NCBI GenBank assembly: GCA_030765065.1
Contig: CM060977.1
Span: forward strand, 159,350,052-159,414,051
Origin: Deroplatys truncata
Taxonomy: Eukaryota; Arthropoda; Insecta; Mantodea; Mantidae
DNA: 64,000 nucleotides
Reading direction: 5' to 3'
Below the pieces are notes generated by a model that saw only the letters and a list, made by a program, of their open reading frames with translations, was not told the DNA's origin and ran no database searches. Shown here piece by piece: positions 2,100 through 54,275 of the stretch. A program made the position numbers and the translations under genes. Every line of letters starts with the position of its first letter. The stretch's first letter is position 1.

Positions 2100-5000
2100 C
2101 AAAACTCTATAGAACTTATTCACTAATTGATGTTGTATGTTCAGTGAATTCAGTTATGTAATTTACAATAGCAGAACTCATCACTGCACTGTAAGAAGAG
2201 TTGGTTCAGAAACCTGCAGGGGAGCTATAAAGCAGTTTAGTGATCTGAATGAAGAGGTACGACTTTTGGAATGGAGAATTGCGATCACAGAATCTGGGGG
2301 GAGTCCATTATACTCTTATTATAAAAATAACTATCTGCAAAGATTTGTTATCAACCAAAGAAAATGCTGTAATATTTTTGGAACACATAACAAAACAACT
2401 AAAAGTGGTTTACGAGAGGTGAGTCTTAATTGGTCATTGCAATGAAAGAAAAGGGACATCACATAATGCCAAAAAATAAATTATGTACTACCTGCAGAGA
2501 ACAAACAAGTTGGAGTACAAACAGAAGAATCGACATCAGAAGACATTCAACCTTCAGAAGCAAACATTACCATAGAACACGAAGTTACAAGAGAAGAATT
2601 GAATGCAAGCTTTGCAAGGTGTATCTCCTATTAAAGTGCAGTGTGTTTCTCACATAGACGCAAAGGCTGGGAAGCGTAAACTTAAATATGTATCAACTGT
2701 TCCAAAAGCAAAAGTAGCCTAGGTTTACACAAAAAAGGAGAGATATTCTTGAAGGTAAGCATTCTACATCCTCAGACGAAGGGCTACACACTGATACGAA
2801 GGAAAACGATGATTTCTCCAAGTCACACACAGATAGAAAGTCCAACTGCTTGCTTTAGTTCCTTCATCCTGGTCTAGACAAAAAATAAATAAATAAATAA
2901 ATACATCTGATGTGTTACACTCACATGACTTTCTCCACTCTTGTACAAACTATTTTTACAAACTCTTATTCTCCATCTATTTCATATTAATCGAGATAAA
3001 CATTTGCAGAAACGATCTTTTGACATGCAAAGAGAATTACATTTTACACCAGTTCTAAAAATATTTGACTATCGCTTAAGGCCTACTAGGTTCCTCTTGT
3101 TTTGTATTTGCAAGGGCAATATAGAAATACAGTAGCCTTTAAGCACATACATATCTCTTAATAGCTGGTTGCTATGTGCAGCACCATTCCATTTGCCACA
3201 GATTATAACTCTTTGCATATCCAAGACAAAAAATGAATAACGAATTCCCATTTGAGAAAACGTATAAATATTGGAAAATTTAAGGGAATAACAAGCAATA
3301 TCTCGAAAATGGTTCACTCAAAAAAAATGTATACGACATAAGTTGTGTATTTTAACGCGATCTACATTTTTGTGTATTAAAATTTTGTCTATCTCTTATG
3401 GTTTACCAGTTATGCAAAAGTCGTTCACAATGAAGAATACTTTTGGAGACATTCCCAGAAAATTCAAGATATACATTTTATTTGTCATGAAAATATCTTA
3501 AACATATGATATTTTAATCAAAATTGTTAGAGCCATTTTTAAGAAAATTAAAATTTTCGAAAAATGTTCCATGTAAAGGGTAATCTGGAGTGGGGGGATT
3601 TTCTTGAAAACCTTCGTGTCGCATCTCTGGAAGATACTGAACCTAAATACCAAGTTTGGTGTTTATCCGACTGTTCGTTTCTGAGTTATGCTGTTCACAG
3701 ACACACACACGGACATGTTCCCAAAAATGCTCTTTTTGGATTCAGGGGGTCTGAAAACATATATTTCCGGTGAAATCTCGGTATCGAATTTTTGGGTGGA
3801 ATACAATACTTCCCCTACTTACTATACGTAGTAGAGAAAGCAAAAATTGTTGAGGAACAAGGAATGTTATCGCTTCCTGAAATAAGAAAAGAAAAGTTGC
3901 TCTCTATGAATGTATTAACACAGTCTTAACTTTTACCGCGATTCTGAGAATTCACAAATAATGTCTGGCATGAAAGATAAAATTAGTGTATGTAAGAATG
4001 TTTATGAGCAGAAGATACTTATACTATATAAACTGCGTGAGCTACATTATGCCTTCAGAAGTAATTATCCTCATTTGAAAATAGGATTTTCAATTTTCTG
4101 CAAATTTAGCCCCGAACAGTGTGTTCTGGCAGGTAGTTCAGGAACTCGCTCAGTTTTTGTATGCACCATACATCAAAACGTACAGTTATTATCAAGTGTG
4201 TTGATAGAATAGTGTTATGAGTTGATCCAGATGATGGTATGTGTCATGGATTACAGAATGTGTAGATTGCCGCTATACAGCAAATCTCCTCCCAAGTCTA
4301 TTTTGAAGGAGTTTCTTATGAACAAATTTCAAGAATATGAACCTGATAATTTGGTGCTATGTAGTCAGTGGGTATCAACAGACAGGATGGATCCAGTAAC
4401 TCAAAGCAGCAAAATACCACACTTCATTGACATGCTTTCGGAAGAACTCGATAAACTGATACGTTCTTTTACAGCAAAGCCTTAGTCCAGGTATTTAAAA
4501 AGCCTCCCCCTCCTAAAAAGAAATTAATGTAGACACTCTCTTATCATGGATTTATATGAACATTTTTCGTTTGTTAAAATGAAGCTCAGAGCTATCACTG
4601 GAACAATAGTTCTGTACACTTAGCCCTGTTGTTGCCTATTATAAGAGTGAAGGTGTAGTTCTTGCAAAAGGTTTCTGTGTATTCTCTGATGTTCTGAACC
4701 ATAATGTTTCTACGATGTTAAAAGCCAGCGACTGATTTTAATATATCTTTAAGTACATGTTAACGAAAATTAAATATATATATAATATTTCAGAGTTGTA
4801 AACAGTTATTAAATATGTGCCAGCATGTACCAGATTTTGGCTTAAACTGCAAATGGCCATTCTTTGCTACAAATCATGGAAAATCTCCATGTGGTGGTAT
4901 TGGCAGGACTTAAAATACTCGCAGCAAAGGCCTTTAAAGGATCAGATCAATTTCTGTTTCGATATGTACAAGTTTTGACCAGAAACAGTAAAAGAAATAC

Positions 5001-12850: not shown

Positions 12851-13665
12851 CAAGAGCAGATCAACAAAGACTGAGTCTGATTTTTTTTCGTGTAGCTTCC
12901 TTAATGGTTTCCTGTCTCTACCATGAACATTGAAAAGAGCGGGGTTTTATGTATAATGTCCATAGGCGGCAGCACTCTCGTATCGGTAGGTTGGTAGTAA
13001 TGCTCTGTTTTGCAGACTCTGCTGCATTCCACATGCCACACCGACTTTAATGGAATGATTTACCGGCATGCATTTCCTCTCACACTACTGTTGCAGCAGG
13101 AAATTACACGTCAGTATTGTCTAAACAGAGGAAGCACATTGCAAGGAAACAACCAGAACTTCATCGGACTGGGTGGCGACTTAATCATGACGACGCGCGA
13201 CCTCGCGTCGCAAATCAAAGTTATGCAGTTTTGGGATAAATGGAACATTACCTGTGTACCGCAACCGCCTTATAGCCCCCGATCTTGCATCCTGTGATGT
13301 TTTTTTTTTTACTTTCTCTACTACGTACAGTAAGTAGGCGAAGTATTGTATTCCACCCAAAAATTCGATACCGAGATTTCACCGAAACACATGTTTTGAG
13401 ACACCCTGAATCCAAAAAAGCAGTTTTGGAAACATGTCCGTGTGTGTGTGTGTCTGTCTGTAAACAGCATAACTCAGAAACGAACAGTCGGATAAACACC
13501 AAACTTGGTATTTAGGTTCAGTATCTTCCAGAGATGCGACACGAGACGCTATAAAAAGTGCATTGAAATAGGAGATAACTTTGAAAAATATGTGTAAACA
13601 TTGAAATGGAGTAACAAACATCTGTGGAAAAAAAATCAGTCTCGGTCTTTGTTGATCAGCCCTCG
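12851..13665 (+). mobile_element. Mariner-like element, decayed, carrying an HLE piece
   Basis: TIRs CAAGAGCAGATCAACAAAGAC and (inverted) CGAGGGCTGATCAACAAAGAC, flanked by TA at 12849-12850 and 13666-13667. Plus-strand transposase pieces: HDDARPRVA near 13187, then in another frame WNITCVPQPPYSP near 13240-13275 (the DD34D catalytic region), and a C-terminal KKCIEIGDNFEKYV with a stop near 13600. The N-terminal half is lost or scrambled. Most of the catalytic C-terminal region has been replaced by the HLE fragment at 13311-13545. Without that fragment only about 0.58 kb of mariner remains of a usual 1.3 kb. Confidence 0.75.
13311..13545 (+). mobile_element. HLE 5' fragment inside a mariner
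   Basis: Starts with the canonical 5' end ACTTTCTCTACTACGTACAG after a T-run and follows the HLE consensus closely through the GT tract and CAGTATCTTCCAGAGATGCG. It stops abruptly after GCGACACGAG, where mariner coding sequence resumes. Only the first ~235 bases of an HLE are present. The fragment at 29952-30183 stops at the same internal point. Confidence 0.85.
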
Positions 13666-17586: not shown

Positions 17587-18618
17587 GTAGTATAACACAG
17601 TGTTTTATCTTTGCTCTTCGTTTTCCGAAACTTTCACTTTTCAGTGTTTACGTACCTTTTTCTCAGAAACCACTGGAGGTAACTGCATGAAATTTTACAC
17701 ACTTATTAAGAATAATAAGATGAACATTTGCTTGCAATAGAATTGCAATATTGGCTTTATTCTGTTATTTACATTATAAAATGAGCTGTTTTTCAATGCC
17801 TAGGTTTTGTTCAATAATTATTTTTTTTAAAAACGTTAATGGGGAGAAATAAAAAGAAATGCCTGTAAGGATAGTTGTATTGATCGATTTAAAATTAGTA
17901 AATAAAATTTTAGAGTGCTGCAATGAGTAGTTTCCATAAAAAAGGTACATAAGATAAGCGATGTCGTGAAAAACATAAAAATCTCTAAGTGGGTTACCAA
18001 AAAAAGAAATAACTTTTAAAAAAAATTACTGAGACACCAACGGATTATGTTTACTAAGTGTGCAAATTTTCATAACTATAGCTGCAATAGTTTAGAAGAT
18101 ACAAATAATTACCTATGCCTCTGCTTTCTGACTTACGTCTCCCCTTAACTACTTCGTGCTAATCGAGATAAACGTTTGCAAAAATGATTTAATTACACAT
18201 TTTGTTTTAGGTACAATAAATGATATACAGGAGGCTGAAGCAACAGTCAAATCTTTAAAAATCGGGTTGACGTGAATACTGACTGATTTCGCATGACCGT
18301 AAGAAATAAACGAATGGCGACTTAATGTTTCAGAAAAGTATTAAATATTTTTACACTCAAACCAGTAACAACGATATCTTGGAAATTTTAATGGCACAAA
18401 AATGAACATATGTGTTTTAACGAGATCTAAAATTTTTTAGGTAGCAAGTTTTTATCTATCCTTTACGCTCACCACTTATGCAAACATTTACAAACCTCAT
18501 TCAGAGATCTTCACAGGCTATTCGCACAAAATGTATAATAAAAATTTTATTTGTCATACAGGTATCTTACATACGTTATTTTAATCAAAATCGTTCGACC
18601 AGTTCTAAGAAAATAAAA

Positions 18619-18840
18619 AATCTGATGTGTTACACTCACATGACTTTCTCTACTCTTGTACAAACTATTTTTACAAACGCTTATTCTCCATATGCTTCAG
18701 GTTAATCGAGATGTTAATCTTATTGCTAATTTTCTTGTAGATGCAAGGGGAATTGCTAGGCTTTAAGCCATAGTCAAATATTTTAAGAGCTGGTTGCTAT
18801 GTGGAGTATTCCATTGTCTTTGCATTGCCAGGACCAAAAA
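18619..18840 (-). mobile_element. HLE 3'-terminal fragment joined to a full copy
   Basis: The plus-strand left edge TCTGATGTGTTACACTCACA is a perfect HLE 3' end. The sequence follows the consensus to the internal A-run (T-run on the HLE strand) at about 18829-18840, where it switches to the 3' end of the next copy. The remainder of this copy is absent. Confidence 0.8.
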
Positions 18841-19669
18841 AAAAAAATCTGGTGTGCTACACTCACATGACTTTCTCTACTCTTGTACAAACTATTTTTA
18901 CAAACGTTTATTCTCCATATGCTTCATATTAATCGAGATATCGAGATGTCAATCTTATTGGTAATTTTCTTGTAGATGCAAGGGGAATATGGTAGGTTTT
19001 AAGCGATAGTCAAATCTTTTAAGAGCTGGTTGCTATGTGGCGCATTCCAATCTCTTTGCATGTCCAGGACATAAAAAAATGAATAACGAATTTGAGAAAA
19101 AGAAGTATTGGAAAATTTAAGGGAATAACAAGCAATATCTCGAAAATGGTTCACTCTACAAAAAAATGTATACGACATAAATTGTGTATTTTACCGCGAT
19201 CTACATTTTTTGTGCAGTAAAATTTTGTTTATCTCTTATGGTTTACCAGTTATGCAAAAGTCGTTCACAATAAAGAACACTTTTGGAGACATTCCCAGAA
19301 AATTCGAGATATACATTTCATTTGTCATGAAAATATCCTAAACCTATGATATTTTAATCAAAATCGTTAAAGCCATTTTTGAGAAAATTAAAATTTTCGA
19401 AAAATGTTCCATGTAAAGGGATTTTCTTGAACCTTCGTGTCGCATCTCTGGAAGATACTGAACCTAAATACCAAGTTTGGTGTTTATACGACTGTTCGTT
19501 TCTGAGTTATGCTGTTCAGAGACACACACACGGACATGTTTCCAAAAATGTTTTTTTTTTGGATTCAGGGGGCCTCAAAACACGTATTTCCGGTGAAATC
19601 TCGGTATCGAATTTTTGGGTGGAATACAATACTTCCCCCTACTTACTATACGTAGCAGAGAAAGTAAAA
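18841..19669 (-). mobile_element. HLE full-length young copy
   Basis: Complete from the 3' hairpin end (TCTGGTGTGCTACACTCACA) to the 5' end (GTAGCAGAGAAAGTAAAAA). It is joined directly to the fragment at 18619-18840, and both together lie within an older HLE of the same orientation. It carries a slightly shortened G-rich block. Confidence 0.85.
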
Positions 19670-19795
19670 ATAGCTAAAAATGTTCTATGTAAAGCATTGT
19701 TTAGGGTGAGGGATTTTCTTGAAATCTTTTTTCACATTATTGTAGGATGTTGCGAACTTAAATACCAAGTTCAGTATGTATTCAACTTTTTTGGA

Positions 19796-19800
<5 letters not shown>

Positions 19801-19866
<66 letters not shown>

Positions 19867-19871
19867 GCGCG
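19801..19871. repeat. (CA)n(CG)n microsatellite in an old HLE
   Basis: About 32 CA units followed by a CGCGCG stretch, at the internal microsatellite site of the old HLE copy. The His-Thr repeat frame across it is an artefact. Confidence 0.95.
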
Positions 19872-19964
19872 CGGACCTTTTTCTAAAAATTCTTTTCCTT
19901 TTAAGTACGTTAAAGGATGTAGAATACGATACTTCCTCTACCTACTAAAGATAGCCATAAAAAG

Positions 19965-20479: not shown

Positions 20480-21303
20480 ACTTTCTCTACTACGTATACT
20501 AAGTAGGGTAAATATTGCATTCCATTAAAAAATTCGATACCGAGATTTCACCGGAAATACATGTTTTGAGGCCTCCTGAATCAAAAAATAAGTATTTTTG
20601 GAATACCGTGTGTGTGTCTGTGAACAGCATAACTCAGAAACGAACAGTCGGATAAACACCAAACTTGGTATTTAGGTTCAGTATCTTCCAGAGATGCGAC
20701 ACGAAGATTTTCAAGAAAATCCCCCCAATTACCCTTTACGTGGAACATTTTTCGAACATTTTAATTTTCTCAAAAATGGCTGTAACGATTTTGATTAAAA
20801 TATCATATGTTTAAGATATTTTCATGACAAATGAAATGTATATCTCGAATTTTCTGGGAATGTCTCCAAAAGTATTCTTCATTGTGAATGACTTTTGCAT
20901 AACTGGTAAACCATAAGAGAGAGACAAAATTTTACTACACAAACAACGTAGATCGCGTTAAAATAGACAATTTATGATGTATACTTTTTTTTTGGAGTGA
21001 ACCATTTTCGAGATATTGCTTGTTATTCCCTTAAATTTTGCAATACTTACACTTTTTCTCAAATGGGAATTCGTTATTCATTTTTTTTTGTCCTGGTAAT
21101 ACAAAGAGAATGGAATACTGCACATAGCAACCAGCTCTTAAAATATTTGACTATCGCTTAAAGCCTACCAATTCCCCTTGCATCTACATGAAAATTAGCA
21201 ATAAGATTAACATCTCGATTAGCATGAAGCCTATGGAGAATAGGTGTTTGTAAAAATAGTTTGTACAATAATAGAGAAAGTCATGTGAGTGTAACACATC
21301 AGA
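20480..21303 (+). mobile_element. HLE full-length copy with a paralogous empty site
   Basis: Starts ACTTTCTCTACTACGTATAC and ends GTGTAACACATCAGA before TTTTT. It belongs to the subfamily whose 3' half contains ATATTTGACTATCGCTTAAAG. It is inserted in the dispersed repeat whose other copy (22455-22615) lacks it, so both ends are well defined. Confidence 0.9.
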
Positions 21304-25675: not shown

Positions 25676-26388
25676 TCTGATGTGTTACATTCACGTGACT
25701 TCTCTGTCCTATAGCACTTATTAGTGGGAATACAAATTATTCTTACGAAAGCTTATTTTCCTATCTTCTTCGTTTTAATCGAGATAAAACATTCTGGAAA
25801 TTGCTGCATTACACATTTCGTTGTAGATATAAAGGGAATAGCGATAGTCAAATGTTTAAGAACTGGACGCTGTGTACAGACCTTAAAATTCTATCTGCGT
25901 GTAATTGCGAGAAGCAACTAAATATCGAAAGGACTTAGAGAATGACCAAGAAATGAGCAACTCGAACCTTTAACAACGGATATCTCGGAAATGGCGTATG
26001 CCACAAAAACCTTACTTTAAATAAACTGTGTATTTTAAAGAGATCTGCATTTTTGTGCAGTACGTTTTCGTCTATGGCGTAAGTTCACCAGTTATGCAAG
26101 ATTATACAAAATTTCTTCTGAATGAAGAGGACTTCATAGGCTATTCCCAGAAAATTCAATATATACATTTTGTCATGTAAATATATTTAATATGTGGTAT
26201 TTTTATCAAAATCGTTATGCATTTTTTAGAAAATCAGAAATTGCGAAAAATATTCCACGTAAAAAGTAGTTTGGAGTGGGTATTTTCTTGAAAATCCTTC
26301 GCATCTTTGTAAGGTTTTGTAAGATACTGAACTTGGTAAATACTAAGTTGGGAATTTATCCTACTATTTAATTTTTGAGTTATGCTGT

Positions 26389-26447
<59 letters not shown>

Positions 26448-26571
26448 ACAAGGACCTTTTTTAAATTCCGGGAACCTCAAAGCATGTATTTCCGGTGAAA
26501 TTTCAGTATCATAATTTTGGGTGGAATGCAATAACTTTATCTACCTACAGGGCACGTGATAAAGAAAGTAA
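25676..26571 (-). mobile_element. HLE, old full-length copy
   Basis: Runs from TCTGATGTGTTACATTCACG to TAAAGAAAGTAAG with the consensus order intact but many substitutions. The internal microsatellite has become a compound CT/CA tract (26389-26445). On the HLE strand its 5' hairpin is rebuilt as CTTTATC-loop-GATAAAG, different bases from the young consensus but still paired. Confidence 0.75.
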
Positions 26572-33960: not shown

Positions 33961-34860
33961 ACTTTCTCTACTACGTATAGTAAGTAGGGGAAGTATTGTA
34001 TTCCACCCAAAAATTCGATACCGAGATTTCACCGGAAATCCATGTTTTGAGACCCCCTGAATCCAAAAAAAGTATTTTTGGAAACATGTCCGTGTGTGTG
34101 TGTGTCTGTGTGTCTGTGAACAGCATAACTATGAAACGAACAGTCGGATAAACACCAAACTTGGTATTTAGGTCAGTATCTTCCAGAGATGCGACACGAA
34201 GGTTTTCAACAGAATCCCCCCACTCCAGATTACCCTTTACATGGAACATTTTTCGAAAATTTTAATTTTCTCAAAAATGGCTCTAACGATTTTGAGTAAA
34301 ATATCATATGTTTAAGATATTTTTATGACAAATAAAATGTATATCTTGAGTTTTCTGGGAATGTCTCCAAAAGTATTCTTCATTGTGAGCGACTTTTGCA
34401 TAACTAGTAAACCATAAGAGATAGACAAAATTTTACTACACTAAAAATGTAGATCGCGTTAAAATACACAATTTATGTCATATACATTTTTTTGTTGAGT
34501 GAACCATTTTCGAGATATTGCTTGTTATTCCCTTAAATTTTTCAATACTTATTTTCTCAAATGGGAATTCGTTATTCATTTTTTTTTTGTCTTGTATATG
34601 CAAAGAGTATTAATCTGTTGCAAAGAGAATGGTGCTGCACATAGCAACCAGCTATTAAGAGATATGTATGTGCTTAAAGGCTACTGTATTTCTATACTGT
34701 CCTTGTAAATATATATTCCCCTTACATCTACAAGAAACTTAGCAATAAGATAGACTCTGCAAATGTTTATCTCGATTAACATGAAGTAGATGGAGAATAA
34801 GCGTTTGTATAAATACTTTGTACAAGAGTAGAGAAAGTCATGTGAGTGTAACACATCAGA
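33961..34860 (+). mobile_element. HLE full-length young copy
   Basis: ACTTTCTCTACTACGTATAG to GTGTAACACATCAGA, flanked by T-runs on both sides. It belongs to the subfamily whose 3' half contains GTATGTGCTTAAAGGCTACT. Close to the consensus throughout. Confidence 0.9.
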
Positions 34861-36570: not shown

Positions 36571-37397
36571 TTTGATGTGTTACACCCATATGACTTCCTC
36601 TACTCTTGTACAAACTATTTTTACAAACGCTTATTCTCCATATGCTTCAAGTTAATCGAGATGTTAAACTTATGGCTAATTTTCTTGTAGATGCAAGGGG
36701 AATTGGTGGGCTTTAAGCGATAGTCAAATATTTTAAGAGCTGGTTGCTATGTGGAGTATTCCATTCCCTTTGCATTACCAGGACAAAAAAATGAATAACG
36801 AATTTGAGAAAAAGTATAAGTATTGGAAAATTTAAAGGAATAACAAGCAATATCTCGAAAATGGTTCACTCAAAAAAAATGTATATGACATAAATTGTGT
36901 ATTTTATGAAGATCTACATTTTTTGTGTAGTAAAATGCTGTCTATCTCTTATGATTTACCAGTTATGGAAAAGTGGTTCACAATGAAGAATACTTTTGGA
37001 GGCATTCCCAGAAAATTCGAGATATAATTTCATTTGTCATGAAAATATCTTAAACGTATGATATTTTAATCAAAATCGTTAGAGCCATTTTTGAGAAAAT
37101 TAAAATTTTCTAAAAATGTTCCATGTAAAGGGTAATCTGGGGTGGGGGGATTTTCTTGAAAATCTTCGTGTCGCATCTCTGGAAGATACTGAACCGAAAT
37201 ACAAAGTTTGATGTTTATCCCACTGTTCGTTTTTAGTTACGGCTGTTCACAGACACACACACACGGACATGTTTCCAAAAACGCTTTTTTTTTATTCAGG
37301 TGGCCTCAAAACATATATTTCCGGTGAAATCTCGGTATCGAATTTTTGGGTGGAATACAATACTTCCCCTACTTACTATACGTAGTAGAGAAAGTAA
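36571..37397 (-). mobile_element. HLE full-length copy
   Basis: From TTTGATGTGTTACACCCATA to GTAGTAGAGAAAGTAAAAA. Subfamily with GGCTTTAAGCGATAGTCAAA (plus strand). The CA tract is short. Confidence 0.9.
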
Positions 37398-38611: not shown

Positions 38612-39448
38612 TCCGATGTGTTACACTCACATGGCTTTCTCTACTCTTGTACAAACTATTTTTACAAACGCTTATTCTCCATGTGCTTCATGTTTATCGA
38701 GATGTTAATCTTATTGCTAATTTTCTTGTAGATGCAAGGAGAATTGGTAGGCTTAAGCGATAGTCAAATATTTTAAGATCTGGTTGCTATGTGGAGTATT
38801 CCATTCTTTTTTCATTAGCAGGACCAAAAAAAATGAATAACGAATTTCCATTTGAGAAAAAGTATAAATATTGGAAAATTTAAGGGAATAACAAGCAATA
38901 TCTCGAAAATGGTTCACTCAAAATAAAATGTATATGACATAAATTGTGTATTTTAACGCGATCTACATTTTTGTGTAGTAACATTTTGTCTCTCTCTTAT
39001 GGTTTACCAGTTATGCAAAAGTCGTTCACAATGAAGAATACTTTTGGAGACATTCCCAGAAAATTCAAGATATACATTTTATTTGTCATGAAAACATCTT
39101 AAACATATGATATTTTAATCAAAATCGTTACAGCCATTTTTGAGAAAATTAAAATTTTCGAAAAATGTTCCATGTAAAGGGTAATCTGGTGTGGGGGATT
39201 TTCTTGAAAACCTTCGTGTCGCATCTCTGGAAGATACTGAACCTAAATACCAAGTTTGGTGTTTATCCGACTTCGTTTCTGAATTATGCTGTTCACAGAC
39301 AGACACACACACACGGACATGTTTCCAAAAATGCTTTTTTTGGATTCAGGAGGCCTCAAAACATATATTTCTGGTGAAATCTCGGTATCGAATTTTTGGG
39401 TGGAATACAGTTCTTCCCCTACTTACTATACGTACTAGAGAAAGTAAC
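38612..39448 (-). mobile_element. HLE full-length copy
   Basis: From TCCGATGTGTTACACTCACA to GTACTAGAGAAAGTAACAA. Subfamily with GCGATAGTCAAATATTTTAA. Flanked on the left by an A-run. Confidence 0.9.
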
Positions 39449-40026: not shown

Positions 40027-40769
40027 TCTGATGTGTTACACTCACATAACTTTCTCTACTCTTGTACAAACTATTTTTACAAACGCTTATTCTCCATATG
40101 CTTGATGTTAATCGAGATAAACATTTGCAGACTCTATCTTATTGCTGAGTTTCTTGTAGATGTAAGGGGAATATATATTTACAAGGGCAATATAGAAATA
40201 CAGTAGCCTTTAAGCACATACATATCTCTTAATAGCTGGTTGCTAGGTGCAGCACCATTCTCTTTGCCACAGATTAATACTCTTTGCATATCCAAGACAA
40301 CAAAAATGAATAAGGAAATCCCATTTGAGAAAATAAGTATTAAAAAATTTAAGGGAATAACAAGCAATATCTCGAAAATGGTTCACTCAAAAAAAATGTA
40401 TATGACATAAATTGTGTATTTTAACGCGTTCTACATTTTTTGTGTAGTAACATTTTGTCTATCTCTTATGGTTTACCAGTTATGCAAAAGTCGTCCACAA
40501 TGAAGAGTACTTTTGGAGACATTCCCAGAAAATTCAAGATATATATTTTATTTGTCATGAAAGTATCTTAAATATATGATATTTTAATCAAAATCGTTAG
40601 AGCAATTTTTGAGAAAATTAAAATTTTCGAAAAATGTTCCATGTAAAGGGTAATCTGGAGTGGGGGGATTTTCTTGAAAACCTTCGTGTCGCATCCTTGG
40701 AAGATACTGAACCTAAATACCAAGTTTGGTGTTTATCCGACTGTTCGTTTCTGAGTTATGCTGTTCACA

Positions 40770-40805
<36 letters not shown>

Positions 40806-40910
40806 CATGTTTCCAAAAATGCTTTTTTGGATTCAGGGGGTCTCAAAACATATATTTCCGGGGGAATACAATACTTCCCCTACTTACTATACGTAGTAGA
40901 GAAAGTAAAA
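40027..40910 (-). mobile_element. HLE full-length copy with expanded CA tract
   Basis: From TCTGATGTGTTACACTCACA to GTAGTAGAGAAAGTAAAAA. The CA tract at 40771-40802 is longer than usual. A ~28-base deletion near 40860 removes the stretch between CCGG and GGGTGGAATAC. Subfamily with AGCACATACATATCTCTTAA. Confidence 0.9.
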
Positions 40911-44756: not shown

Positions 44757-45930
44757 TAACATTCATAATTTGACACCCTTTTCCGTTACACTATTTGAAT
44801 TTATAACTTAAATGCACTTTTTAGAGAAGAACGATGCTTATTGGGTTGTGTAGATAATTCCCGAAATATCCGCGTACAGAATTCAGAAGCGTCAGATGTT
44901 CAGGATAAATCCTGGGTTTAAGCCACTAGTTGGGTGGAGATAGTGCAATCTTACGACCTTTAATGTAAAGGTTTTAAGACTTGCAGTGAAATGAAACTGA
45001 CACCGCTTTGACTTAACCATCCAAATGCAACAGAGAGTTATGTGTGCATTGTAGGACAAAATTCAGCCCTTGGCAGAAAATGAAATGGGCTGAATTGGAT
45101 TTATTGTTGCGTTATTGTAGTCGGTCCCCCTAAAACATTACCTATACATTATGGACTTGATCAAGAAACGAAACAGAAGAACATAAAGGTACGGCAGTGG
45201 CTTGTGACAGAGGGGAGTCGTGGATGAACGTGACAGACCGTGACTGGGGTTAGGGCATTGAGAAAATCGATAAAATGGTGATACTTAATAAATATACGCT
45301 CCCAAAGCCTCACGTCTGTCTACGGGTCAAAGCTCGCCTTAGTACCTTGGGCTTGCTTAGACATGCCTACCCTACCAATAGTTTTAATTATTTCCTCTCT
45401 TATGCATAGCGGGTTGCTTTCATAAGATGTGATAATAGTGTTAACCGCCTGTTACTGCATAGGGAACCGCGGGCTGTACAAGAAGTGATGTACGACATTG
45501 CTTTAGAAACCCCTTAGTTGTAATTCTTTTCTTTGGTATTAGAAGCTAGCGAAGACGACGTATGAAGTTTTTTAGTCCTTTAGAACAGGGATGACCGACC
45601 GTAAAGAGAGAGGGGATGAAGGGAGTTTTCCTTCTCACTCATTTCCACTCGTGCTACCAAGGACATACTTGATTGGTTTAGTTTAGGGATGCCCAACCGC
45701 AGTCGTAAGAGGGGCAGGGTGGGTGAACCTCCGTCCACCCGCTCCGACATGTTATTGTGATCATGTAAGCCTACTTTACGTTGCAAAAAATGGATTATGT
45801 TTGCCGAGTTTCATGATAGTTTGAATCCACTGTGATATTCTTTAAAAATATATTTAATACAACATACCGTGGATATCGTGCCGTTTGTACGTCACATTTC
45901 TCTTTTGTCTTTTCTGGCACATCTTATTTC
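44757..45930. other. No recognisable gene; possible hAT-like edge
   Basis: Short frames only. CAGGGATGACCGACC at about 45585 and AGGGATGCCCAACC at about 45685 recall hAT MITE ends, but no 8-bp duplication was found. Confidence 0.35.
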
Positions 45931-46533
45931 TTACTCTACTTACTATAGAGTAAGTAGGGGATGTATTGCATTCCATCCAAAAATTCGATACCGAGATTTC
46001 ATCGGAAATACATGTTTTGAGGCCCCCTGAATCCAAAAAAAGTATTTTTTGGAAACATGTCCGTCTGTGTTTCTGTGAACAGCATAACTCAGAAACGAAC
46101 AGTCGGACAAACACCAAACTTGGTATTTAGGTTCAGTATCTTCTAGAGATGCGACACGAAGGTTTTCAAGAAAATCCCCCCACCCCAGATTACCCTTTAC
46201 ATGGAACATTTTAATTTTCTCAAAAATGGCCCTAACGAGTTTGATTAAAATATCATATATTTAAGATGCTTTCATGACAAATAAAATGTATATCTCGAAT
46301 TTTCTGGGACTGTCTCCAAAAGTATTCTTGATTGTGAACGACTTTTGCATAACGCGTAAACCATAAGAGATGGACAAAATTTTACTGCACAAAAACTGTA
46401 GATCGCATTAAAATACACAATTTATGTTATACATTTTTTTGTCGTTGAGTGAACCATTTTCCAGATATTGCTTGTTATTCCCATAAATTTTCCATTGCTT
46501 ATAGTTTTTCTCAAATGGGAATTCGTTATTAAT
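45931..46533 (+). mobile_element. HLE array unit 1, 3'-truncated
   Basis: Begins CTTACTCTACTTACTATAGA, an altered 5' end forming the palindrome CTTACTCTA-loop-TAGAGTAAG. Follows consensus to the internal T-run at about 46530, where unit 2 starts. Its 3' third is missing. Confidence 0.85.
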
Positions 46534-46537
46534 TTTT

Positions 46538-47422
46538 ACTTTCTCTACTACGTATAGTAAGTAGGGGAAGTATTGCATTCCACCCAAAAATTCGATACCG
46601 AGATTTCACCGGAAATACATGTTTTGAGACCTCCTGAATCCAAAAAAAGCATTTTTGGAAACATGTCCGTGTGTGTGTCTGTGTGTCTGTGTGTGTGTGT
46701 GTCTGTGTGTGTGTGTGTCTGTGTGTGTGTGAACAGCATAACTCAAAAACGAACAGTCGGATAAACACCAAACTTGGTATTTAGGTTCAGTATCTTCCAG
46801 AGATGCGACACGAAGGTTTTCAAGAAAATCCCCCCACCCCAGACTACCCTTTACATGGAACATTTTTCGAAAATTTTAATTTTCTCAAAAATGGCTCTAA
46901 CGATTTTGTTTAAAATATCATATGTTTAAGATAATGCCATGAGAAATGAAATGTATATTTCGAATTTTCTGGGAATGTCTCCAAAAGTATTCTTCATTGT
47001 GAACGACTTTTGCATAACTGGTAAACCATAAGAGATAGACAAAATTTTACTACACAAAAAATGTTGATCTCGTTAAAATACACAACTTATGTTATATACA
47101 TTTCTTTTGTTGAGTGAACCGTTTTCGAGATATTGCTTGTTATTCCCTTAAATTTTCCAATACTTATACTTTTTCTCAAATTCGTTATTCATTTTTTTAT
47201 GTCCTGGACTTGCAAAGAGAATGGAATTCGACACATAGCAACCAGCGTTAAAATATTTGACCATCGCTTAAAAGCTACCATATTCCCCTTGCATCTACAA
47301 GAAAATTAGCAATAAGATTGACATCTCGATATCTCGATTAACATAAAGCATATGGAGAATAGGCGTTTGTAAAAATAGATTGTACAAGAGTAGAGAAAGT
47401 CATGTGAGTGTAACACATCAGA
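46538..47422 (+). mobile_element. HLE array unit 2, full length
   Basis: ACTTTCTCTACTACGTATAG to GTGTAACACATCAGA. The microsatellite is a compound GTGT/CTGT tract (46668-46732). Immediately followed by seven T's and unit 3 in the same orientation. Confidence 0.9.
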
Positions 47423-47429
47423 TTTTTTT

Positions 47430-47557
47430 ACATTCTCTACTACGTAGAGTAAATAGGGGAAGTATTGTATTCTGCCCAAAAATTCGATACCGAGATTTTA
47501 CCGGAAATACATGTTTTGAGACCCCCTGAATCCAAAAAAAGCATTTTTGGAAACATG

Positions 47558-47605
<48 letters not shown>

Positions 47606-48351
47606 TGTGAACAGCATAACTCACAAACGAACAGTCGGATAAACACCAAACTTGGTATTTAGGTTCAGTATCTTCCAGAGATGCGACTCGAAGGTTTACA
47701 AGAAAATCCCCCACCCCAGATTACCCTTTACATGGAACATTTTTCGAAAATTTTAATTTTCTCAAAAATGGCTCTAACGATTTTGATTAAAATATCATAT
47801 GTTTAAGATGCTTTCATGACAAATAAAATGTATATCTTGAATTTTCTGGGAATGTCTCCAAAAGTATTCTTCATTGTGAACGACTTTTGCATAACTGGTA
47901 AACCATAAGAGATAGACAAAATTTTACTGCACAAAAAAATGTAGATCGCATTAAAATACACAATTTATGTCATATACATTTTTTTTGTTGAGTGAACCAT
48001 TTTCCAGATATTGCTTGTTATTTCCTTAAATTTTTCAGTACTTAATTTTCTCAAATGGGAATTCGTTATTCATCTTTTTGTCTTGGATATGCAAAGAGTA
48101 TTAATATGAGTCAAAGGGAATGGTGCTGCACCTAGCAAGTAGCTATTAAGAGGTATGTATGTGCTTAAAGGTTACTGTATTTCTATATTGCCGTTGTAAA
48201 TATATATTCCCCTTACATCTACAAGAAAATTAGCAATAAGATAGAGTCTGCAAATGTTTATCTCGATTAACAAGAAGTAGATGGAGAATAAGCGTTTGTA
48301 AAAATAGTTTGTACAAGAGTAGATAAAGTCATTTGAGTGTAACACCTCAGA
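47430..48351 (+). mobile_element. HLE array unit 3, full length, other subfamily
   Basis: Starts CATTCTCTACTACGTAGAGT (5' palindrome CTCTAC-TAC-GTAGAG) and ends GTGTAACACCTCAGA. GT tract of about 19 units at 47563-47603. Its 3' half is of the GTATGTGCTTAAAGGTTACT type, unlike unit 2, so the array is not a simple duplication. Confidence 0.9.
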
Positions 48352-50420
48352 TTTTTTTAACAAACATCGATATTTGCCGCCAGTGATTACGTACAAAGTC
48401 TCAGAAGACTTGCCAAATGATCGTCACTTATACTATTATGATATGGGCTTTTAATTTAAATCATTTTGGAAAACGTTTGCAAATGTATGTAGATCCGAAG
48501 ATTGCTACTACATTTATTGCAAACACACGTAACCGTGGAAATTTGTCACAAGGCAGTGATTTAAAGAGTTCGCATTCTTCTTTATTTGAATATTTAATTG
48601 TGGTAGAATTCTGCACTTCAAGTAGTTTCATATGGAGATTATGTGGAGCCTCACTGCAAGAGAAACTCGTATATATGGACGATTTGCATGAATATTAAGA
48701 ATCATTAATACTTACCTGTTCTTTCATGAAGCTAGCGATCTCGCTACATAATTGGAAAAAACGTGTTAATATGGCACCTCAACTCAACCATCTTATGACA
48801 GTAATGTAGTACTTGTGAATATTCTGATCCCAGTTCTTCTAATAATTCTTTGAATTGTCAAAGGCGGAGGGGGCTAGAGTAATAAAATTCACACACTTCA
48901 CTTACATTATTCAGGGTTACTGACTTAGCACATAAAAAGCTTCCCTATGAATTGTACAATGAATATATAACAGTTCCGAAGTTACACCAATACCCTGCAA
49001 AAATTGACTGAGCCTACCAATAAAGCCATATTCTTGTCCTTTCATAGGTGGTGCTATATCGGTTGCGACACTGACAAGTTTAGTCCAGGGAAGCTCATAT
49101 TTGCACCCAACATTATGAACAGCAGTGAATATATCTTCGCCGCATGCTTTATTCTGGAGAGAAACTACATCTAAAAGCTCTTCAAAAACATTTAAATAAA
49201 TATCAATCTTCCTAAAAAATATTGCTAGTTGAGCTTCATTGCATCTGTCTGTAGTGTCATCTAACGCTAATGCAAAACAAATTAGCGATTTTATTTTCTC
49301 CTGCAGTTGTTTTTACTTTCTCTACTACGTATAGTAAGTAGGGGAAGTATTGTATTCCACCCAAAAATTCGATACCGAGATTTCACCGGAAATACATGTT
49401 TTGAGACAGCTTTTCAAAAAAAGCATTTTTGGAAACATGTCCATGTGTGTGTCTGTGAACACCATAACTCAAACGAACAGTCGGGTAAACACCAAACTTG
49501 GTATTTAGGTTCAGTATCTTCCAGAGATGCGACACGAAGGTTTTCAAGAAAATCCCCCCCACCCCAGATTACCCTTTACATGGAACATTTTTCGAAAATT
49601 TTAATTTTCTCAAAAATGGCTCTTAACGATTTTGATTAAAATATCATATGTTTAAGATATTTTCATGACAAATGAAATGTTTATAACCCCGAATTTTCTG
49701 GGAATGTCTCCAGAAGTATTCTTCATTGTGAACGACTTTTGCATAACTGGTAAACCATAAGAGATAGACAAAATTTTACTACACAAAAAATGTAGATCGC
49801 GTTAAAATACACAGTTTATGTTCATAAACATTTTTTTTTGTTGAGAACCATTTTCGAGGTATTGCTTGTCATTCCCTTAAATTTTCCAATACTTATACTT
49901 TTTCTCAAATTCGTTATTCATTTTTTTTGTCCTGGTAATGCAAAGAGAATGGAATACTCCACATAGCAACCAGCTCTTAAAATATTTGACTGTCGCTTAA
50001 AGTCTACCAATTCCCCTTGCATCTACAAGAAAATTAGCAATAAGATTAACATCTCGATATCTCGATTAACATGAAGCATATGGAGAATAAGCGTTTGTAA
50101 AAATAGTTTGTACAAGAGTAGAGAAAGTCATGCGAGTGTAACACATCGGATTTTTCTATATCACATTCCAGTTCCCAAATCCTCCTTGTAACAGCATTCG
50201 AGAAAGCTTAACGACTGAAAGCGTTTATGAAATTAGGGCAAATTTCTTCAGCCCCAATCACATATCGTTTTATGAACTCCCCTTCATTTAACCGTTTCAT
50301 ATTTTTTCCTATTTGTTCTCAAATCGATGCGACGCCCTTAAGATATTCCCGGTGTTTGGAATTTGATCAGTAGATTCTTTCACATTCTTTAATTTGTTGT
50401 AATCTAGCTTCACCTACAAA
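48352..50420 (-). mobile_element. hAT transposase fossil (ZBED/GTF2IRD2-like), split by an HLE
   Basis: Minus-strand reading from about 50410: YNKLKNVKESTDQIPNTGNI, MKRLNEGEFIKRYVIGAEEI (50250-50310), then after the HLE at 49315-50151 KSLICFALALDDTTDRCNEA (49240-49300, the first catalytic Asp region), FEELLDVVSLQNKACGEDIF, LPWTKLVSVATDIAPPMKGQ (about 49060), LLYIHCTIHREAFYVLSQ (about 48930) and IRWLSRGVVLTRFF (about 48770). These are the motifs of hAT transposases of the Charlie/ZBED type, which bind DNA by a BED finger. Frames shift downstream of 48930, and the C-terminal dimerisation region is not readable before 48352. Confidence 0.85.
49315..50151 (+). mobile_element. HLE full-length copy within a hAT transposase
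   Basis: ACTTTCTCTACTACGTATAG to GAGTGTAACACATCGGA, after TTTT and before TTTTT. It separates the hAT segments ending GNWNVI-like and beginning KSLICF, so it inserted into an existing hAT copy. Subfamily with ATATTTGACTGTCGCTTAAA. Confidence 0.9.
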
Positions 50421-53366: not shown

Positions 53367-54275
53367 CGAGGTGTGATCAAAAAGTTTCCGGAATGACGTC
53401 ATAAATACCACACAACAGTTGTTTTGTCTAATCTGCACTGTCACCCTCGAAGTAGTCTCCTTGGAAGTTGATACACTTGTCCCAGCGCTTCTGCCACTGC
53501 TGAAAGCACCTCTGGAAGTCCTCTTCTTTCAACATGTTCAGAGCCTTCTGCGATTCGCGATGGAAGACATCAATGTCCTCAAAACGGTTTCCTCGGAGCC
53601 GCATTTTAAGTCGCGGGAAAAGAAAAAAGTCCGCTGGTGGTGCCAAATCTGGAGGATAGGCGGGATGAGGAACAGTTTTCATCCTATTTTTATCAAGAAA
53701 TTGGCGAACAGAAAGGGCTTTGTGCACGGACGCATTGTCATGATGCAGGAACATGTCCAGATTGTCTTTCAAAATGCTTTGAACACTTCCAAAGAAGAGT
53801 CCTAATGAGTCAGAAAGTTCTCTTATTGTAATGCGGCTATCATTTAAGACCATTTCCCTCACCTGATTGATATTTTCATCAGTTTTGCTGGAACAGGGTC
53901 GCCCCAAATGATCTGCATCTTTAACTGATATCACGCCACTTTTAAATTTCGAAAACCACTCAAATGCTTGCCCATAAGCTGCTCTTAACATTTCATTGGC
54001 TTCTGTTGCAGTTTTACCGAGTTTAAAACAAAATTTGATATTCGTTCTTTGTTCTTCGTATCTTGACATTTTTGCTACGCGGAAAAATCGCAGCACATGC
54101 AAAACACGTGTTCACTTCAGAGCGTCTACCTCGTCACTGTATGGTCACAGGAAGTCACGTGAACCCTCATTTTATCGGCAAGGAACGCTGAATGTACAGT
54201 CTGGGTAAGAATTAAAGAAATCCCAGCGTCAGCATTGTTGTGAAGCCATTCCGGAAACTTTTTGATCACACCTCG
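53367..54275 (-). mobile_element. Mariner transposon, internally deleted, intact TIRs
   Basis: Both ends are present and near perfect: CGAGGTGTGATCAAAAAGTT then TCCGGAATG, inverted at 54247-54275. TA lies on each side (TATA at 53363-53366 and 54276-54279). At 909 bp it is about 0.4 kb shorter than autonomous mariners. The deletion lies in the coding region and keeps the frame open. Confidence 0.95.
53428..54069 (-). CDS. Mariner transposase with in-frame internal deletion, uninterrupted ORF
   Basis: From MSRYEEQRTNIKFCFKLGK (the start at 54067-54069 is preferred over an upstream in-frame ATG at 54102, since mariner proteins begin there) to EGDSAD, 213 codons plus stop against about 345 usually. 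Helix-turn-helix DNA-binding part: YGQAFEWFSKFKSG near residues 30-45 and ITIRELSDSLGLFFGSVQSI near 90-110. Then the sequence jumps to DMFLHHDNASVHKALSVRQF, so the segment with the first catalytic Asp is missing. The second Asp (HHDN) and third (ADFFLFP) of the DD34D triad remain, with one extra residue between them. It cannot cut DNA but could still bind TIRs and dimerise. Frame kept open without stops. Confidence 0.85.
   Translation of the reverse strand: MSRYEEQRTNIKFCFKLGKTATEANEMLRAAYGQAFEWFSKFKSGVISVKDADHLGRPCSSKTDENINQVREMVLNDSRITIRELSDSLGLFFGSVQSILKDNLDMFLHHDNASVHKALSVRQFLDKNRMKTVPHPAYPPDLAPPADFFLFPRLKMRLRGNRFEDIDVFHRESQKALNMLKEEDFQRCFQQWQKRWDKCINFQGDYFEGDSAD

Follow-up and report, generated by a model that had tools for sequence, protein, structure and literature searches.

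HLE, a very large family of non-coding HINEs in Deroplatys truncata, and a Rep/helicase Helentron that carries both of its ends

The repeat family HLE, described here from a window of 64,000 bp (C3:159350052-159414051 of the 4.29-Gb assembly of Deroplatys truncata; "the window" always refers to this whole stretch), is with a probability of about 0.95 a non-coding HINE, i.e. a non-autonomous Helentron, which a Helentron residing in this genome copies in trans. The first-pass annotation had regarded HLE as a HINE amplified by a Rep/helicase elsewhere in the genome, and had suggested a search of the same genome for Rep/helicase genes whose ends match both termini. This search was performed and supports the suggestion: it led to a partner of approximately 10.4 kb that shares both ends with HLE, and in 13 out of 13 Rep/helicase elements read both ends match those of HLE. 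HLE is a new and very large HINE family, the kind of element itself being known.

The HLE family in the window and in the genome

The reference copy (subfamily a) occupies positions 33961..34860 on the plus strand. It begins with a 5' terminal inverted repeat of 12 bp, ACTTTCTCTACT (33961..33972, plus strand), which is overlapped by the palindrome TACTA-CGTA-TAGTA (33969..33982, plus strand; folding as 5 pairs). A GT-rich microsatellite at 34092..34118 (plus strand) varies in length among copies, and an internal T-run at 34579..34588 (plus strand) is, in other copies, the commonest landing site of nested HLEs and Helentrons that we have seen. The 3' subterminal inverted repeat lies on the minus strand at 34827..34838, where the plus strand reads AGTAGAGAAAGT, 22 bases before position 34860. 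The 3' hairpin ATGTG-AGTGTAA-CACAT (34840..34856, plus strand) has its arms at 34840-34844 (ATGTG) and 34852-34856 (CACAT) and is followed by CAGA, so that it stands 4 nt before the end. All these elements of the earlier description, the 5' repeat, its inverse 22 bases inside, the hairpin, the palindrome and the GT microsatellite, were found where it had placed them. The 3' hairpins of HLE and of the Helentron (ATGTG...CACAT) each fold with five pairs; in the same folding run just three pairs were retained in a divergent relative at 25676.

The earlier statement that HLE has no coding capacity is in agreement with the absence of any overlapping frame of at least 110 aa, counted from stop to stop, in the reference copy. 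For 8 of the 27 listed ORFs of the window Pfam returned sub-cut-off matches alone, with no Rep or helicase among them. Fragments of mariner-type HTH/DDE and of DUF4371, under the Pfam cut-offs, lie at 53428-54111 and 48917-49312 (both minus strand). No Rfam match in the window reached gathering scores, an internal motif of HLE was absent from the viral contigs scanned, and a bacterial-type promoter/terminator scan of HLE gave nothing above chance.

Ten full copies of 818-936 bp are present in the window, with pairwise identities of 87.6-95.2% in end-to-end alignment. Each possesses the 5' repeat of 12 bp with no more than one mismatch, its 3' inverse, the 3' hairpin and T-rich flanks. The 12-mer with at most one mismatch occurs 22 times (both strands, 5' and 3' ends pooled), compared to 0.50 expected from dinucleotide shuffling and a maximum of 3 among 100 shuffles. 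A profile built from the ten full copies finds 26 places (E<=0.01), namely these copies, one divergent full-length relative, and pieces. Both counts bear out the earlier estimate of about 22 copies or pieces. The 26 places cover 21.7% of the window and the ten full copies 13.5%.

Two subfamilies can be told apart by the 3' third of HLE. Subfamily a comprises the reference copy, 40027..40906 (minus), 47430..48351 (plus; 7 T behind the copy at 46538-47422) and the variant 2906..3841 (minus). To subfamily b belong 18848..19665 (minus), 20480..21303 (plus), 36571..37395 (minus), 38612..39445 (minus; left flank TTTGTT), 46538..47422 (plus; near to the Helentrons' own 5' half) and 49315..50150 (plus). 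The tails of a and b are 80-85% alike, those of the variant 2906 73-76%. This variant also contains an inverted stretch (3022-3114, plus strand) matching HLE 628-723; a comparable inverted piece is located next to the L067 Helentron. The divergent relative at 25676..26568 (minus) shares the 3' end CACATCAGA and the T-run; 75.5% of the aligned columns are identical, and its last nine bases equal those of HLE. Among the pieces are a 5' piece (HLE 1-230) at 13311..13544 (plus) and an older 5' part (HLE 4-616) at 45932..46536 (plus), which is cut at the internal T-run by the next copy and whose 3' half was not found. At 45930-45954 the 5' end of this old copy diverges, and its palindrome is longer, CTTACTCTA...TAGAGTAAG.

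In the genome, 40 of 5,567 first-look candidates found with the reference copy were scored, and these 40 are 91-100% identical to it over the whole or nearly the whole query, the reference itself included. With the window copy 46538-47422 as query the genome gave zero matches, probably because words of such high frequency escape the search. The last 30 bp of HLE followed by TTT occur exactly 109,573 times in the genome (54,624 on the plus and 54,949 on the minus strand), whereas the reversed control string occurs 0 times. As 4 out of 10 window sites within 3 mismatches of this string are exact, a rough extrapolation from these four sites would lead to approximately 270,000 such 3' ends genome-wide. 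Some of the 3' ends sit in arrays. Near the start of its contig, at C1:20515-119397 (L075, L077), an HLE 3' end recurs every ~3,409 bp or double this distance; the 26 listed sites are on the plus strand throughout. Two neighbouring units are 98.8% identical; in both, ~2.6 kb of other DNA surrounds an almost complete HLE (3-844). This is an HLE caught in a tandem array.

The Rep/helicase partner and its ends

The 4.29-Gb genome was searched with the Helitron Rep family. With 150 of the 291 candidates scored, 152 Rep matches were reported, and 18 fall within open frames that span 2,000 aa or more; in two of these 18 long-frame elements (C5:31076102 and C10:96140944) the C-terminal match holds a stop. 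Two elements of approximately 10.4 kb, A on C9 and B on C1, were fetched with their flanks. Their identity over 10,448 bp is 98.6%, and they diverge at the T-run flanks outside ACTTTCTC and CATCAGA. Because of this identity Helentron activity was probably recent. A separate class of Rep matches (L009-L012) scores much higher on the Helitron family than the Helentron class, with 187-196 bits, and has a stop within the domain in each of the four best copies; it is perhaps an older canonical Helitron lineage.

The Helentron frame read is a single open frame of 2,324 aa with the order Herpes_teg_N (E 3.1e-11), 21-aa repeats, DUF6570 (E 4e-17), Helitron_like_N, PIF1 and PF14529 endonuclease. The Rep (HUH) domain PF14214 (E 4.4e-29) and the PIF1-type helicase PF05970 (E 8.9e-29) thus reside in one frame, and the helicase matches the solved Helraiser with E 3.1e-25. 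The C-terminal AP-type endonuclease PF14529 was found with E 1.8e-6 and 28.2 bits against a cut-off of 27.4; compared to solved structures this part gave chance-level matches alone. A Y-x-x-K-Y motif and an H-E-H pair were read by eye in the frame. Also by eye, a D-P-H was seen in the tegument-type protease, for which a D-x-H motif is described, as is the occurrence of such proteases in Helentrons (both in PMC9741609). The 21-aa unit is charged and corresponds to 13.9 copies of a 63-bp tandem repeat (L039:5039-5914); when A and B are compared by position, 53 out of their 64 differing residues lie inside this stretch. The C-terminal 333 aa yielded 131 matches with 121 of 1,701 candidates scored, the best 11 of which tie for the top score at 100% identity.

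Both ends were read in 13 Helentrons, i.e. the 12 best C-terminal matches (L048-L059, with A being L054) and B, which as best matches are the youngest or best kept ones. All 13 end in HLE 812-844; in the Helentron compared with the HLE consensus these last 33 bp are 93.9% identical (E 2.2e-9). Over the last 60 bp of this comparison, 45 of 55 aligned columns are identical with 10 gap columns, which falls short of a clear 80%. At the 5' end all 13 (A, B and L060-L070) carry an HLE unit up to 615-616, and then a second unit from base 1. In A and B this reads as HLE 1-615, CATTTT, and HLE anew from base 1 to ~725, after which inverted and direct HLE pieces follow. The HLE consensus 1-624 and 1-706 matches the 5' part of the Helentron with 92.3% and 90.5%, respectively. 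The inverted repeats are common to both elements, at the 5' end in 12 of 12 positions and at the 3' end as GTAGAGAAAGT, with 11 bp identical.

Judging from the alignment, HLE cannot be derived from the Helentron compared by a mere internal deletion. As HLE ~725-812 has no match in element A, the direct parent of HLE may be another Helentron subfamily. Furthermore, the Helentrons read need not be the movers of the HLEs in the window, because the latter differ by 5-12% and the two Helentrons by 1.4%.

Target sites and competing explanations

Target sites were inspected in 28 full copies whose flanks were available (11 from the window, 17 from fetched loci), using copies aligned from model position 1-2 to 842-844 exclusively; these are a non-random sample, since loci had been retrieved for being best matches, nested cases or neighbours of Helentrons. 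At least 2 T are present on both sides in 25 of the 28 copies, compared to 0.016 of random window positions. At least 3 T stand on the left in 23 and on the right in 25 copies, compared to 0.044 of random positions for each side. In five copies the left run is just 2 T (e.g. TTTGTT), and in three the right run is 0-1 T. The first-pass claim that every well-defined insertion lies in a T-run therefore holds for 25 out of 28, with "every" being slightly too strong. A target duplication of fixed length not made of T, named there as a refuting observation, was absent from the 28 copies, apart from one ambiguous ATTTTT site at L047.

Nested HLEs provide a further view of the target, as the consensus gives the state of the site before insertion. 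The flanks of the insert in L043 are GTT and TTTTCTTGG, while in the window just one T precedes CTTG in all four copies of type a. Three to five T were thus gained, according to which of these copies the host was like, exceeding a 2-bp duplication; this gain cannot be a duplication. In L044 a consensus T5 has become T5 on either side of the insert, and in L059/L069 a T7 has become T6 on both sides. In L050/L068 a full HLE and a Helentron share a T5 site; T5 now precedes and T7 follows the pair, and there is one G less. At such T-only sites approximately 5-7 T are gained, and terminal Ts and a short duplication are indistinguishable there. Apart from L047, no duplicated sequence was seen outside the T-runs, in agreement with terminal Ts being part of the element and varying in number, as described in PMC4067079.

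These observations also bear on the idea of cut-and-paste movement, in which a DDE transposase would mobilise HLE as a MITE and TTTTT would be its target duplication of 5 bp. A left flank of exactly 5 T in 17 of the 28 copies, the T5 target at L044 that reads T5|element|T5, and the ATTTTT on either side at L047 would all suit such an element. However, the longest possible duplication is at most 2 bp in 7 of the 28 copies, so that one of at least 3 bp is impossible in these, and the inverted repeats are asymmetric, being terminal at the 5' end and 22 bp inside at the 3' end. Since the element found to share both ends is of the Rep/helicase type in all 13 copies read, we regard a MITE as extremely improbable. 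HLE also lacks the canonical Helitron traits (5' TC, 3' CTRR, A|T target), having 5' AC, 3' CAGA and a T-run instead. ATon elements (PMC3422177) were considered and rejected, as these are described as AT-inserting and their target is unlike that of HLE.

Another candidate group would be Helitron2, with asymmetric repeats and no endonuclease. Asymmetric terminal repeats with palindromes at both ends are described for it (PMC4067079), as is insertion beside TTTT (PMC5148889), and HLE could be placed there instead of with the Helentrons. The partner frame, however, possesses the C-terminal PF14529 endonuclease as well as the tegument-like protease reported from Helentrons (PMC9741609), making this assignment very unlikely. 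It could also be argued that the Helentrons merely captured HLE ends, HLE being moved by a different, unseen element. The missing HLE ~725-812 in the Helentron compared, and the HLE sequence directly behind the 3' end in 8 of the 13 Helentrons, point in this direction. Yet in A and B, whose left and right flanks are both unrelated, the first base is still precisely base 1 of HLE and the end still HLE 812-844, which leaves such a capture a very slim chance. We therefore retain the reading of HLE as a HINE copied in trans by a Helentron.

Nested copies, composites and related systems

The enzyme family and the composite pattern point to rolling-circle copying. In the proposed mechanism the Rep domain would nick at the T-run before ACTTTCTCTACT, one strand would be peeled off by the helicase, and the 3' hairpin before CAGA would act as the stop signal. 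The strand could then be joined into another T-rich site without duplicating this site, its terminal Ts travelling along. Because HLE itself has T-runs, HLEs and Helentrons would land within HLEs, and a later round that begins at the outer 5' end or runs past the inner 3' end would lead to composites. The present Helentron would be such a composite, carrying an extra HLE 5' half.

Among the best 40 HLE copies six with a flanking HLE stretch were read. Their insertion sites are the T-run 613-621 in L043, L045, L046 and L047, positions 115-119 in L044 and 518-526 in L003; the host HLE could be recovered with its two halves in L043, L044, L047 and L003, and with the 5' half alone in L045 and L046. 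The window itself holds a composite. The b copy 18848..19665 (minus), a T12 run and directly after it an HLE 3' half (611-844; 18621..18845, minus) lie inside an older relative, whose 5' part (13-297) is found at 19663..19952 (minus) and which resumes (292-775) past the composite at 18147..18618 (minus).

For the Helentrons we tallied host halves (5',3') at the 613-621 run alone, a dimer being counted as one. Seven (A, B, L048, L049, L050, L056, L059) are of type (1,0), L057 is (1,1), L052 and L053 are (2,1), L051 and L055 (2,2) and L058 (3,2); several also adjoin full HLEs. The innermost 5' half is 97-100% identical among the 13 Helentrons and 96-98% identical to the window copy 46538, whereas in the 4 copies in which the HLE unit of the core was compared, this unit is 93-95% identical to the innermost half. 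The extra 5' half of the 13 Helentrons is best explained by a composite that moved as a unit. In the simplest account a Helentron once landed in the T-run of a 46538-like HLE, and a later round of copying ran from the outer 5' end up to the 3' end of the Helentron itself.

Plain nesting accounts for the (2,1) and (3,2) Helentrons, and missing halves may have been lost by deletion. The extra 3' halves at L051, L055 and L057 suggest either an original right half or a run past the inner 3' end. The extra half of L051 belongs to type a, with 94-95% identity to most a copies, while the inner 5' half is closer to the b copy 46538 (96%) than to the a copy 33961 (93%). This favours a run-past at this one locus, by a comparison in which 5' halves separate the subfamilies poorly. 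For L057 no empty site was established by a search with the joined flanks: each flank matched itself at 99-100%, and matches elsewhere took in the 3' flank and at most a little beyond it (83-88%), with one match of 78-207/208 at 76%.

Several features of HLE are known from the HINEs and Helentrons of Metaseiulus, Culex and Drosophila (Thomas, Vadnagara and Pritham 2014, PMC4067079). HLE shares with these HINEs a T-rich target, a variable number of terminal Ts, microsatellites, a palindrome at the 3' end and subterminal inverted repeats, which in the mite measure 12-15 bp, and their partner likewise has Rep, helicase and AP-type endonuclease. It differs in the distance from the 3' repeat to the end (22 bp compared to 38-60 in the mite) and from the hairpin to the last A (4 nt compared to 8-35), and the HLE partner has in addition a tegument-type protease in the same frame. 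DINE-1/INE-1 of Drosophila, by its description in the same source, has a similar plan, with a 5' inverted repeat overlapping the 5' terminal repeat, a microsatellite, a 3' stem-loop and a TT target. Animal Helitrons are described there as having an A|T target and no endonuclease, unlike HLE and its partner.

The proposed mechanism is borrowed from Helraiser, a bat Helitron with hairpin terminator, 3'-end bypass and circles, in which terminator bypass was shown (PMC4778049); Helraiser is a canonical Helitron with TC...CTAG ends, unlike HLE. Missed ends and movement of composites were suggested for Helentrons by Thomas et al (PMC4067079). The composite FoHelis of Fusarium oxysporum arise by self-insertion and then carry several 5' termini and one 3' terminus (PMC5148889); this model also explains the extra HLE 5' half of the Helentrons. 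The duplicated 5' part is typically <200 bp in FoHelis and ~615 bp in the Helentrons (13/13 read), some copies of which have further outer halves. In titles and abstract openings of the open-licence literature we found no animal Helentron with a fixed composite 5' end, which is weak evidence for novelty.

HLE is a HINE family tied to its partner by both ends within the same genome, for which the mite, mosquito and fly families are precedents. Of the partner, several copies of full length exist here; their open frames are long, and they resemble each other closely enough to count as recent. As nested sites are frequent, target choice, terminator bypass and terminus exchange of Helentrons become measurable on one genome. 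We tentatively propose, as a possibility we consider rather doubtful at present, that the T-run 613-621 of HLE is a landing pad, that one-ended transposition from nested sites could grow the Helentron by shells, and that hosts and parasites may thereby exchange termini. If this is true, the current Helentron lineage would by now begin with one half of its own parasite, the 5' one, and outer halves would be gained and lost independently at the 5' and the 3' side.
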